From NCBI RefSeq assembly GCF_009707365.1, contig NZ_CP046122.1, positions 3,410,001 through 3,474,000 on the forward strand: DNA of 64,000 bases, in the 5' to 3' direction. The notes under the pieces were generated by a model. That model saw nothing but the letters and a program-made list of their open reading frames with translations. It had not been told where the DNA came from and did not search any database. Position numbers and translations under genes: made by a program. Shown here piece after piece: positions 9,822 to 55,909 of the stretch (the stretch's first letter is position 1; the number at the start of each line of letters is the position of its first letter). The DNA is from Microlunatus sp. Gsoil 973 (lineage in GTDB: Bacteria > Actinomycetota > Actinomycetes > Propionibacteriales > Propionibacteriaceae).

Positions 9822-9898
9822 GCACCGGCTGCATCGGGTGCGCGGACAGGCGGCCGGTACGGGATCGAGCAAGTGGTGCGCCGTCGAGCAAGCGGTGC
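9822..9898 (+). repeat. CTGCA-centred 19-bp-phase repeat element, copy A
   Basis: GCACCGGCTGCATCGGGTGC at 9822-9841 is followed in 19-bp steps by a degenerate unit (about 9848-9860), GAGCAAGTGGTGC (9867-9879) and GAGCAAGCGGTGC (9886-9898). The same layout occurs at 54541-54598 and 55765-55860, with the palindrome edge and unit ends in identical 19-bp phase. The function is unknown. Confidence 0.75.
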
Positions 9899-9914
9899 GC
9901 CGCACGCGCCCCCT

Positions 9915-10113
9915 GTACGCAAGCTCAAAGTTTGACCCTCCGGCGCGTTCGGCGCCCGAAATCCCGCCACACCATCAACGTTTGACCTTCCGGGTCACCG
10001 CCGCCGACGGGGCCAACGGGCCGCCCGGCTCCGGTACGCAAGCTCAAAGTTTGACCCTCCGGCGCGTTCGGCGCCCGAAATCCCGCCACTGGGTCAACGT
10101 TTGACCTTCCGGC
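9915..10113 (+). repeat. Duplicated 56-bp repeat with TCAAAGTTTGA motif
   Basis: A 56-bp sequence starting GTACGCAAGCTCAAAG occurs identically at 9915-9970 and 10034-10089 (119-bp period). Each copy is followed by TCAACGTTTGACCTTCCGG after a 4-5 bp variable stretch. The core TCAA(A/C)GTTTGA therefore appears at 9925, 9975, 10044 and 10094, in pairs 50 bp apart. The same core, again with a 50-bp pair, recurs at 32971-33075. The rest of 9726-9914 and 10114-10170 shows no gene. Confidence 0.8.
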
Positions 10114-54272: not shown

Positions 54273-54698
54273 CCCGCCGGACCCGGCGCCGAATCACCGC
54301 CCGGTCACCTTCCCGCACCAGTTAGTGCGCGGCGCACCAGTTCGTCGACAGCGCTCCCACCGCCGGCCCCGTTCCCGCACCAGTTGGTCAGCGACGCACC
54401 AGTTCGCCGACGGCGCACCCACCGGGACGGCCCATTTCCGCACCAGTTGGTCAGCGACGCACCAGTTCGTCGGCGGCGCACCCACCGGGACGGCCCATTC
54501 CCGCACCAGTTCGTCGGCGGCGCACCAATTACTCGGCCGCGCACCAGCTGCAGGCGGTGCGACGTCGAGTTGCTGCCGCGGGAACGAGCAACTGGTGCGG
54601 GAAGGTGCGGCGTGGCGGTGTCGGGCGGGCGACTACCGGGCGGGCGACTACCCGACGGCAACCGACCTGACGGCAACTACCCGACGCGGGCGGCCGGC
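54273..54698. other. Repeat-filled region between convergent genes
   Basis: These 426 bp carry no credible gene. Short ORFs read through the repeat and spell TNWC-containing peptides because the period is a multiple of three; they have no start signals. Bases 54310-54598 are the repeat element. The remaining ~100 bp contain CGGGCGGGCGACTACC-type short runs only. Confidence 0.6.
54310..54598 (+). repeat. CTGCAG-centred 19-bp-phase element, copy B (largest)
   Basis: The left part is a tandem array with ~63-bp period (units starting 54310, 54372, 54435, 54498), each holding two GCACCAGTT motifs 19 bp apart (GCACC starts at 54315, 54334, 54377, 54396, 54440, 54459, 54503, 54522 and 54541). GCACCAGCTGCAGGCGGTGC at 54541-54560 is the centre. 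To its right, in opposite orientation, come a degenerate unit and GAGCAACTGGTGC (54586-54598) in the same 19-bp phase. The element points outward from the centre on both sides. Confidence 0.85.
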
Positions 54699-55607
54699 TC
54701 AGGGACGGAACGGCGTACCGCGCCGGAACGCACGGCGTACGCGCGCCACGAGGACCGTCCGGGTGAAGATCTCCTCCCACACCCACCGCGTCATCTGGAG
54801 TCCCAGATCGCGTACCGCATCCTCCCGGCGCTTCTCCCGGACCATGACGTCGGCGGGTGTCTCGCCGGGGCCCACCAAGCGGCCGTACTTGAACTCGCCG
54901 TCGAACTCGCCGACCGTCCCTTGTTCGGGCCAGAGAAAGTCCACCGTGGCGATCTTGGTCGCTCCGTCGAAGAGTTCGGCCTGCAGCTGAGGCATCGGCA
55001 GACGTTCCTCGAAGAACACCACCCTGCTCAGTGACTCGCCGGGGCTTTCGCTCAACGGGTCGAGCAGTCCTGCCGCCGCCCGTGCGCGACGCGATCCGTG
55101 GCGCCGACGGGCTCGCTCCAGCTGCGCGGCCACGTCGTCCTCCGTCATCCCGGCGCGGAGTCCCGCATCTCCCGCGGCTACGCCCCACCCCAGCGGAACA
55201 GTCCGTGCGAGGTCGACGAAGGTACGGGCCAGGCTGGTCACCGGCAGCCCGTCGATCATGCACACATCATCGGACCGCAGCGGTGCTACGTGCACGTGGA
55301 CGAGTGACCGGATCCGACCACTGTCCGCGCGGTTGCGGGTCAGATGAACCTTTCTCAAGGCCGACCACGGCACCGGAAGTCCGTGCATCACCGCGGCCGA
55401 TGCGAAGCTGATCACGGAGTCACCCAGGCCGAGCGCGACAGTCGACTCGATCATCAGTCGGTGCAGCTCGTCGGGCTCGCGGTCGCTGTTGAGGACGTAC
55501 GCCCCACGTCTGAGCCGGGTCAACGAACCGGCTCGTCGACGCCTGGCCAGCTCGTCATGGGTTGTGCCGATGGCTACGAGATCACGGGTCAGCCGGAGTT
55601 CGCTCAC
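54699..55607 (-). CDS. AbiEi-like wHTH protein with nuclease-like C-terminal domain
   Basis: A 302-residue protein. The N-terminal ~60 residues resemble the AbiEi antitoxin winged helix: HDELARRRRAGSLTRLRRGAYV. The middle resembles the AbiEi repeat (VISFASAAVMHGLPV, TSLARTFVDLARTV). The C-terminal ~110 residues show a restriction-endonuclease-like set of acidic residues: SPGESLSR, IATVDFLWPEQ and GEFDGEFKYGR. Such proteins are widespread in actinobacteria. No AbiEii toxin is adjacent, so a toxin-antitoxin role is unsupported. Both flanks are non-coding DNA with copies of the same repeat family. Confidence 0.8.
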   Translation of the reverse strand: MSELRLTRDLVAIGTTHDELARRRRAGSLTRLRRGAYVLNSDREPDELHRLMIESTVALGLGDSVISFASAAVMHGLPVPWSALRKVHLTRNRADSGRIRSLVHVHVAPLRSDDVCMIDGLPVTSLARTFVDLARTVPLGWGVAAGDAGLRAGMTEDDVAAQLERARRRHGSRRARAAAGLLDPLSESPGESLSRVVFFEERLPMPQLQAELFDGATKIATVDFLWPEQGTVGEFDGEFKYGRLVGPGETPADVMVREKRREDAVRDLGLQMTRWVWEEIFTRTVLVARVRRAFRRGTPFRP

Positions 55608-55909
55608 ATCCTTACATTGGGCAAATTCGTGTCGGGTGGTTCACCCGGACAGCCGATCTGTGGATATGTCGGCGTGTTCTGCGGCCTGTGGACAGCGCGA
55701 GGTCCGTACGACCACCGCAGGTGGCGCACCCTTTCCTCGATCACGCGACCTTTACTCGACTTCGCACCGGCTGCAGGCGGTGCGCGGCCGAGCAACTGGT
55801 GCGGCACCGAGCAACTGGTGCGGCACCGAGCAACCGGTGCGCGGCCGAGCAACTGGTGCGGCACCAGCGCCGGGGCAGGGCGCGAGCACGGGACGGGCTC
55901 GAGTGGCGG
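55608..55909. other. Non-coding region between pheA and AbiEi-like gene
   Basis: These 302 bp hold the AbiEi-like promoter (near 55608-55760, with nothing else identified) and then repeat copy C at 55765-55860. No gene is supported; ORFs through the repeat encode SNWC-type peptides and are spurious. Confidence 0.5.
55765..55860 (+). repeat. CTGCAG-centred 19-bp-phase element, copy C
   Basis: GCACCGGCTGCAGGCGGTGC at 55765-55784 is followed by GAGCAACTGGTGC (55791), the same at 55810, GAGCAACCGGTGC (55829) and GAGCAACTGGTGC (55848). The spacing is exactly 19 bp, with GGCACC or GCGGCC filling between units. Only the right half is present. Copies A and B share centre and phase. Confidence 0.85.

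Follow-up and report, generated by a model that had tools for sequence, protein, structure and literature searches.

The stretch of DNA analysed here (the window) covers 64 kb, corresponding to positions 3,410,001-3,474,000 of the single contig of a high-GC genome of 4.91 Mb (G000). It contains three arrays of short repeats, referred to as copies A, B and C, each of which has a palindromic centre. Copies B and C flank a single gene located on the minus strand (54699-55607), and together with it they occupy the stretch between a DAGK/PAP2 gene and a prephenate dehydratase gene. That this gene is part of the element was not recognised in the preliminary description of this DNA. The features identified in the window are the following:

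9822-9898: copy A, solitary array without a gene; centre at 9822-9841, with right-hand units that end at 9879 and 9898
54273-55909: stretch of 1637 bp between the DAGK/PAP2 and prephenate dehydratase genes, holding copy B, the gene and copy C
54310-54540: left arm of copy B, GCACC units in 63-bp superunits, with the units at 54503 and 54522 in register
54541-54560: palindromic centre of copy B
54561-54598: right arm of copy B, one degenerate and one good 19-bp unit
54699-55607, minus strand: gene for a 302-aa protein that combines an AbiEi-like winged helix with a putative PD-(D/E)XK-like nuclease domain, the proposed driver of the repeats
55726-55763: left arm of copy C, two units, the inner one degenerate
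55764-55783: palindromic centre of copy C
55784-55859: right arm of copy C, four 19-bp units, all in phase

The core of copy B (54310-54598) is the palindrome GCACCAGCTGCAGGCGGTGC at 54541-54560, from which GCACC units extend to the left and GGTGC units to the right, in agreement with the outward-facing repeat around CTGCAG that had been reported at this place. On the right side, a degenerate unit (54561-54579) is followed by a good unit ending at 54598, both on the 19-bp step, and the earlier observation that even the weak unit keeps its phase is thus borne out. A superunit of 63 bp, previously estimated at about 3.5 copies on the left side, was recovered by TRF at 54310-54545 with 3.8 copies and 86% matches. 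In contrast, the claim that all the left units lie on one 19-bp grid did not hold: the phases of the GCACC starts relative to the centre (mod 19) are 0, 0; 13, 13, 13; 7, 7, 7; and 2, 2, drifting by 6 because each superunit equals 3x19+6 bp; the two units closest to the centre (54503 and 54522) are the only ones in register. The right-side units of copies A (9822) and C (55764; total extent 55726-55859) are in phase. Over the 64-kb window, CAACTGGTGC occurs 23 times with at most one mismatch, against 3.85 occurrences expected, a count that was reached in none of 100 shuffles. Two copies of a stretch starting GTACGCAAGCTCAAAGTTTGACCCTCCGGCGCGTTCGGCGCCCGAAATCCCGCCA, unrelated to the lattice, were noticed by eye at 9914-10110, next to copy A.

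Genome-wide distribution of the repeats

The preliminary description had proposed a scan of the genome and its relatives for the 19-bp spacing, and considered a functional lattice unlikely should the copies be confined to the loci first noticed. They are found throughout G000, in which 75 centres matched the pattern GCACCN3TGCAN3GGTGC (control 0) and 76 elements matched, with at most one mismatch, the 58-bp pattern GCACC-N14-GCACC-N10-GGTGC-N14-GGTGC (control 0); across the genus, GCACC on a 19-bp step was detected in eight of 20 genomes. The element has the architecture of a nested palindrome, GCACC N14 [GCACC N10 GGTGC] N14 GGTGC, with a step of 19 bp. Phase and arm statistics cover 72 of the 75 centres of G000. 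Within 100 bp of these, 159 of the 191 outward GCACC motifs on the left and 196 of the 212 outward GGTGC motifs on the right are exactly at phase 0, and the inward-facing motifs (28 and 18) show no phase-0 peak.

The G000 elements carry between 0 and 8 units in the left arm and between 0 and 11 in the right arm. The arms are often extended into longer arrays, with tandem growth occurring on top of the lattice. At several loci of G000 (L155, L156, L160, L172, L177 and others), there are two to four copies of the entire element, spacer included, about 140-300 bp apart, so local duplication affects complete elements besides single 19-bp units.

According to a simple gene caller based on codon usage, none of the centres in the fetched regions of G000, and one of 18 in G006 and G012, fell inside a called gene. 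Classified by the orientation of their neighbours, 46 loci of G000 comprised 13 convergent, 8 divergent and 25 codirectional cases, and convergent intergenic DNA accounts for 9.4 of 61.8 kb across the regions fetched; given a crude gene caller and inserts that themselves widen the gaps, this enrichment of arrays between convergent genes is no more than suggestive. In a wider contig collection, from which near relatives are possibly absent, the two-unit pattern gave two single matches in unrelated MAGs. A scan of a viral collection with the 14-base centre was unspecific (at least 120 stretches matched) and was not used as evidence.

Comparison with the sister genomes indicates how the arrays came to their positions. 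Among 15 other genomes with a matching pheA locus, the gap between the DAGK/PAP2 and prephenate dehydratase genes measures 40-219 bp in eight (83 bp in G012, whose pheA is the most similar, and 40 bp in G011) and 465-1374 bp in five, with two having no DAGK match in the fetched locus; the nuclease gene is absent from this locus in all 15. A solitary array at locus L197 sits where two convergent genes meet, in a gap of about 140 bp; in the sisters G012, G006 and G011 the corresponding gap measures 1, 24 and 26 bp, respectively, between the alignment ends. At the two sites tested, the insertions are thus missing from sister genomes and the arrays are inserted DNA. The site of copy A is not conserved in G012, G006 or G011. 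At the empty sites found, no target-site duplication was seen, the sisters being too diverged for one to be read.

The protein encoded between copies B and C

The N-terminus of the window protein matches the Pfam model AbiEi_4 with 21.5 bits, below its cut-off of 25 bits, and with PADLOC the AbiEi winged helix reached a best E of 9.4e-18. A total of 35 matches above 200 bits were identified in the genus, of which 32 were aligned, leaving out L249 and L266 (internal stops) and L218 (unclear start); AbiEi_4 was matched at E<=0.01 by 20 of the 32.

The C-terminus is putatively PD-(D/E)XK-like, as judged from profile matches, all weak in the close homologues, and from conserved residues. Among the close homologues, DUF559 was matched in one (E 0.023) and MTES_1575 in one of 32, while MTES_1575 is matched, with scores under its cut-off, by five of 10 remoter homologues, three of which also match DUF559; one of the 10 matches DUF559 above its cut-off. 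Residues E191, D223, E234, D236 and K240 are invariant in all 32 aligned homologues, and we take them to be the active site on the model of the PD-(D/E)XK fold family rather than of a structure.

No Y1/HUH transposase family was found among the Pfam matches of the 32 homologues at E<=0.01, nor any recognised transposase domain among the Pfam, NCBIfam and PHROGs matches; PHROG matches amounted to zero and NCBIfam matches to three stray ones. A profile search against solved structures gave two matches, both at E 0.95 and neither relevant, and a single-sequence fold of the window protein was unusable (mean pLDDT 34).

The gene is widespread. At least one match at E<=0.001 is present in each of the 20 genomes of the genus, and in a class-wide sample, where scoring was limited to the five top candidates of each genome, profile matches at E<=1e-30 were obtained in 217 of 394 genomes. 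Relatives of the window protein comprised none confirmed in the viral collection and four partial ones in the plasmid collection.

Palindromes flanking the homologues

The flanks of the homologues were scored for a palindrome with arms repeating a word at 19 or 20 bp, using a threshold met by none of 192 shuffled flanks. Lattice palindromes were detected on both flanks of 26 of the 32 genus homologues, on one flank of four (L235, the window's own, together with L248, L257 and L268) and on neither flank of two (L241 and L251), the arms at L235 being expanded and degenerate. A palindrome also lies on each side of L218, which had been left out of the alignment. Among the 26 copies flanked on both sides, 22 have a step of 19 bp and four a step of 20 bp.

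The repeated word consists of GC followed by three bases (GCNNN). Of the 104 inner words inspected by eye, 103 have GC in this position, and the triplets vary between gene copies (ACC, TTC, GAC, TCG, ACA, GGC and others). Inner-word identity is 0.82 between the two flanks of one copy versus 0.50 between copies, a value reached in none of 10000 permutations, and for 23 of the 26 copies the best inner-word match is found in the same copy. The divergence of the words does not track that of the proteins (Mantel r 0.10; 673 of 5000 permutations as high).

At 28 loci from other genera, scores above the highest of 56 shuffles were obtained on both flanks of eight, on one flank of four and on none of 16; among the eight, one upstream call falls within the gene. 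Many of these 16 loci share inverted ends. Comparison of each upstream flank with the reversed form of the downstream one gave 14 or more identical bases at 21 of the 28 loci from other genera and at 18 of the 32 genus loci, against a 95th percentile of 12 in 480 mismatched control pairs, some of which reach 91 because some loci appear orthologous. None of six remote homologues (L279-L284) met the palindrome threshold of 34, and the link to flanking and dispersed palindromes is seen in the close subfamily.

At 15 of the loci from other genera (L290-L304), both ends of the cassette start near ATGAYCAYGT in 12 cases, by eye. The outermost unit is there unlike the inner units, and the ends of the neighbouring genes look alike, as if the cassette had kept one conserved junction while the words changed.

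Dispersed arrays predicted from the gene flanks

For the words GCGAC and GCTCG, the occurrence of arrays in the 20 genomes of the genus was predicted from the gene flanks alone, whereas the comparison for GCACC was made after the fact; all the array counts include the palindromes that flank genes. GCGAC arrays, predicted for G008 and G004, numbered 65 and 73 in these genomes, and amounted to one in G011 and none in the remaining 17. GCTCG arrays (at most two mismatches), predicted for G019, G014 and G017, numbered 50, 13 and 11, respectively, with one each in G006, G012 and G003, and 25 in G005, where they were not predicted. Array number thus varies between species from none to dozens.

The assembly of G005 consists of 490 contigs, in which no cognate gene with the GCTCG word was found; a gene fragment on contig 52 has no adjoining lattice (best score 26), and the cognate gene may be absent or truncated where a contig ends. 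Of the eight genomes with GCACC on a 19-bp step, seven carry a GCACC-flanked gene or, in G012, a lattice palindrome adjoining a gene remnant with stops; the eighth is again G005, with one match and a gene whose flanks scored no lattice. The gene of G002 has words of the GCAC type on a 20-bp step, and this genome gave no match to the 19-bp pattern.

At the G012 locus (L316, G012:C12:77000-79000), a good GCACC palindrome, with its centre at 709, lies beside the remnant of the nuclease gene, and other GCACC palindromes are present in the same genome (15 by the 58-bp pattern). This is a possible case of an orphaned repeat family.

Proposed mechanism and alternative explanations

We consider it probable that these repeats belong to a REPtron-like system, constituted by a resident nuclease gene and non-autonomous palindromes, in which the protein is unrelated to the known REP transposases. 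In the mechanism we propose, each repeat word has, so far as observed, a single chromosomal gene of its own. This gene codes for a protein that joins an AbiEi-like winged helix to a PD-(D/E)XK-like nuclease domain, and it is enclosed by two nested palindromes, in each of which the word (GC followed by three bases specific to the copy) occurs four times, facing outward, at intervals of 19 or 20 bp. The winged helix would read the word at each step on double-stranded DNA, protein molecules would line up outward from the palindromic centre, and the nuclease domain would cut or nick at the array, leading at a low rate to the copying of the palindrome into new intergenic sites. Most copies, lacking the gene, would be non-autonomous, and their arms would lengthen later through local tandem duplication. 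The DNA binding, the cleavage and the active mobilisation by this protein are what we infer from the architecture and distribution described above. A more ambitious proposal is that of a new class of genome-wide palindromic repeats, driven by a nuclease unrelated to known transposases, in which the fusion protein reads a copy-specific, quickly changing GCNNN code on a 19-/20-bp lattice and spreads non-autonomous arrays in actinobacterial genomes; in our judgement this proposal stands at even balance.

Different scenarios might otherwise explain the association of the gene with the arrays. A domesticated host function, in which protein-bound arrays would organise or protect the chromosome after mobilisation had ceased, is unlikely. 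It would account for the presence of at least one gene match in all the 20 genus genomes, for the lack of confirmed relatives in viruses and the four partial matches in plasmids, for the maintenance of the putative catalytic residues, and for the cassette of one family, which, from neighbours compared by eye, seems fixed at the same gene junction. However, arrays have appeared at new places since the divergence of G000 and its sisters, and their number ranges from none to dozens between species.

We regard as quite unlikely that the arrays form a regulon, with the protein as an AbiEi-like autorepressor and the arrays as operators at many genes. Excerpts from PMC7319586 describe AbiEi proteins that bind inverted repeats at the promoters of their own genes, and the upstream palindromes are indeed near the gene start, but the gene is flanked downstream too, and 13 of the 46 G000 loci are located between convergent genes, where no promoter is expected. 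Moreover, the arrays are inserted DNA at the two sites tested, and a nuclease domain would be superfluous for a repressor.

A role of the palindromes as RNA or single-stranded DNA hairpins, as in REPs, is very unlikely. Co-variation of the arms was assessed in 23 elements of G006, 30 of G019 and 20 of G008. The arms of the same element resemble each other more than those of other elements in the outer segment of G006 (0.76 vs 0.61; 0/10000) and in one of three segments of G019 (0.73 vs 0.56; 9/10000), as hairpins would require, but no such effect exists in G008 (0.61 vs 0.68). Long one-sided tandem arms occur in G000, the word and the step persist even where pairing between the arms is lacking, and six loci gave no Rfam family at the gathering score. 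Across several species, the word and the step (19 bp, or 20 bp in some copies) are maintained while most of the intervening sequence changes. Since word and step are kept throughout and arm pairing is not general, a protein reading double-stranded DNA is favoured. The winged-helix gene between copies B and C and the tendency of the word to go with the gene copy, together with the mixed co-variation of the arms, likewise favour a protein over RNA as the probable reader. The preliminary description had argued for a structure read by protein or RNA, against an origin by random tandem growth. Conservation of word and step supports such a read lattice; strict phase on the left side of copy B is not supported, and tandem growth is present as well.

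Finally, it is also very unlikely that another enzyme moves the palindromes and that the gene is a passenger, caught between two copies or using them for its own regulation, a reading to which the arrays of G005 without a found gene and the fact that mobilisation by this protein is what we infer lend themselves, but against which stand the palindromes on both flanks of 26 of the 32 gene copies, their word being specific to each copy, and the dispersed words correctly predicted from the gene flanks.

Comparison with known systems

The REPtron-like organisation that we favour is best appreciated against REP/RAYT (TnpA-REP) systems, which, in excerpts from PMC3733652, PMC8049555 and PMC8266576, comprise a gene, its flanking palindromes and gene-less relatives (REP/REPIN-RAYT). 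Both have in common a palindrome-flanked gene with many gene-less intergenic relatives in the same genome, and a gene rarely found on plasmids or viruses. In contrast to REP/RAYT, the protein has no Y1/HUH match in Pfam, the repeat is a nested palindrome of 58-68 bp on a 19/20-bp lattice instead of a REP hairpin of 20-40 bp, and its arms can grow into arrays. The tag GTAG, searched up to 12 bp outside either end and including 4 bp inside, was present in one of 72 elements of G000 and none of 22 of G006 and G012; in the same zone CGTC was present in 14 and two, respectively, close to a rough chance value of 0.17 per element. Because there is neither a Y1/HUH match nor a GTAG tag, the system is not a member of the REP/RAYT family, and its organisation is convergent with it. 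By analogy, it may work like a REPtron.

The N-terminal winged helix matches the AbiEi models of AbiE type IV toxin-antitoxin systems, whose AbiEi-type proteins bind repeated inverted sites according to the excerpts from PMC7319586. Nevertheless, AbiE repeats are of 23 bp as opposed to the 19/20-bp step found here, and both the C-terminal nuclease-like domain and the genome-wide dispersed sites set the present system apart. An AbiEii (DUF1814) toxin gene is absent at the two loci inspected, beside the window gene, whose neighbours are DAGK/PAP2 and prephenate dehydratase, and beside its G006 homologue L203, whose neighbours are RNA polymerase Rpb1 domain 5 and MFS.

Inverted ends around one gene, short gene-less copies and empty sites in relatives are shared with MITEs and insertion sequences; the differences are that no transposase domain was recognised among the Pfam, NCBIfam and PHROGs matches and that each end is itself a large palindrome. 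No target-site duplication was seen, the sisters being too diverged to reveal one. As for the PD-(D/E)XK group of DUF559 and REase_MTES_1575, the likeness concerns the C-terminal domain, remote homologues matching these models, whereas the palindrome link is seen in the close subfamily and none of the six remote homologues reached the threshold.

The earlier remark that no described element of this layout was known agrees with our search of open-access full text, which yielded no description of such a system among the matches listed, subscription papers and preprints lying outside its scope. The enzyme type and the repeat architecture fit none of the families tested and no other that is known to us, while the organisation converges on that of REP/RAYT. 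If confirmed, a second, non-homologous REPtron-like system would imply that such repeat populations arose more than once, and would point to a role for a large set of proteins that at present carry the label hypothetical or AbiEi antitoxin-like, with profile matches in 217 of the 394 genomes of the class-wide sample. The gene copies and their words would furthermore provide naturally occurring pairs of protein and DNA that might allow a recognition code of the winged helix to be deduced. In G006, a second palindrome family, of the type GCACCCGAAATCGACCGCCGCACCCGAAATTTCGGGTGC, resembles the flanks of another gene copy (L236), which suggests that several gene-repeat pairs coexist in one genome.
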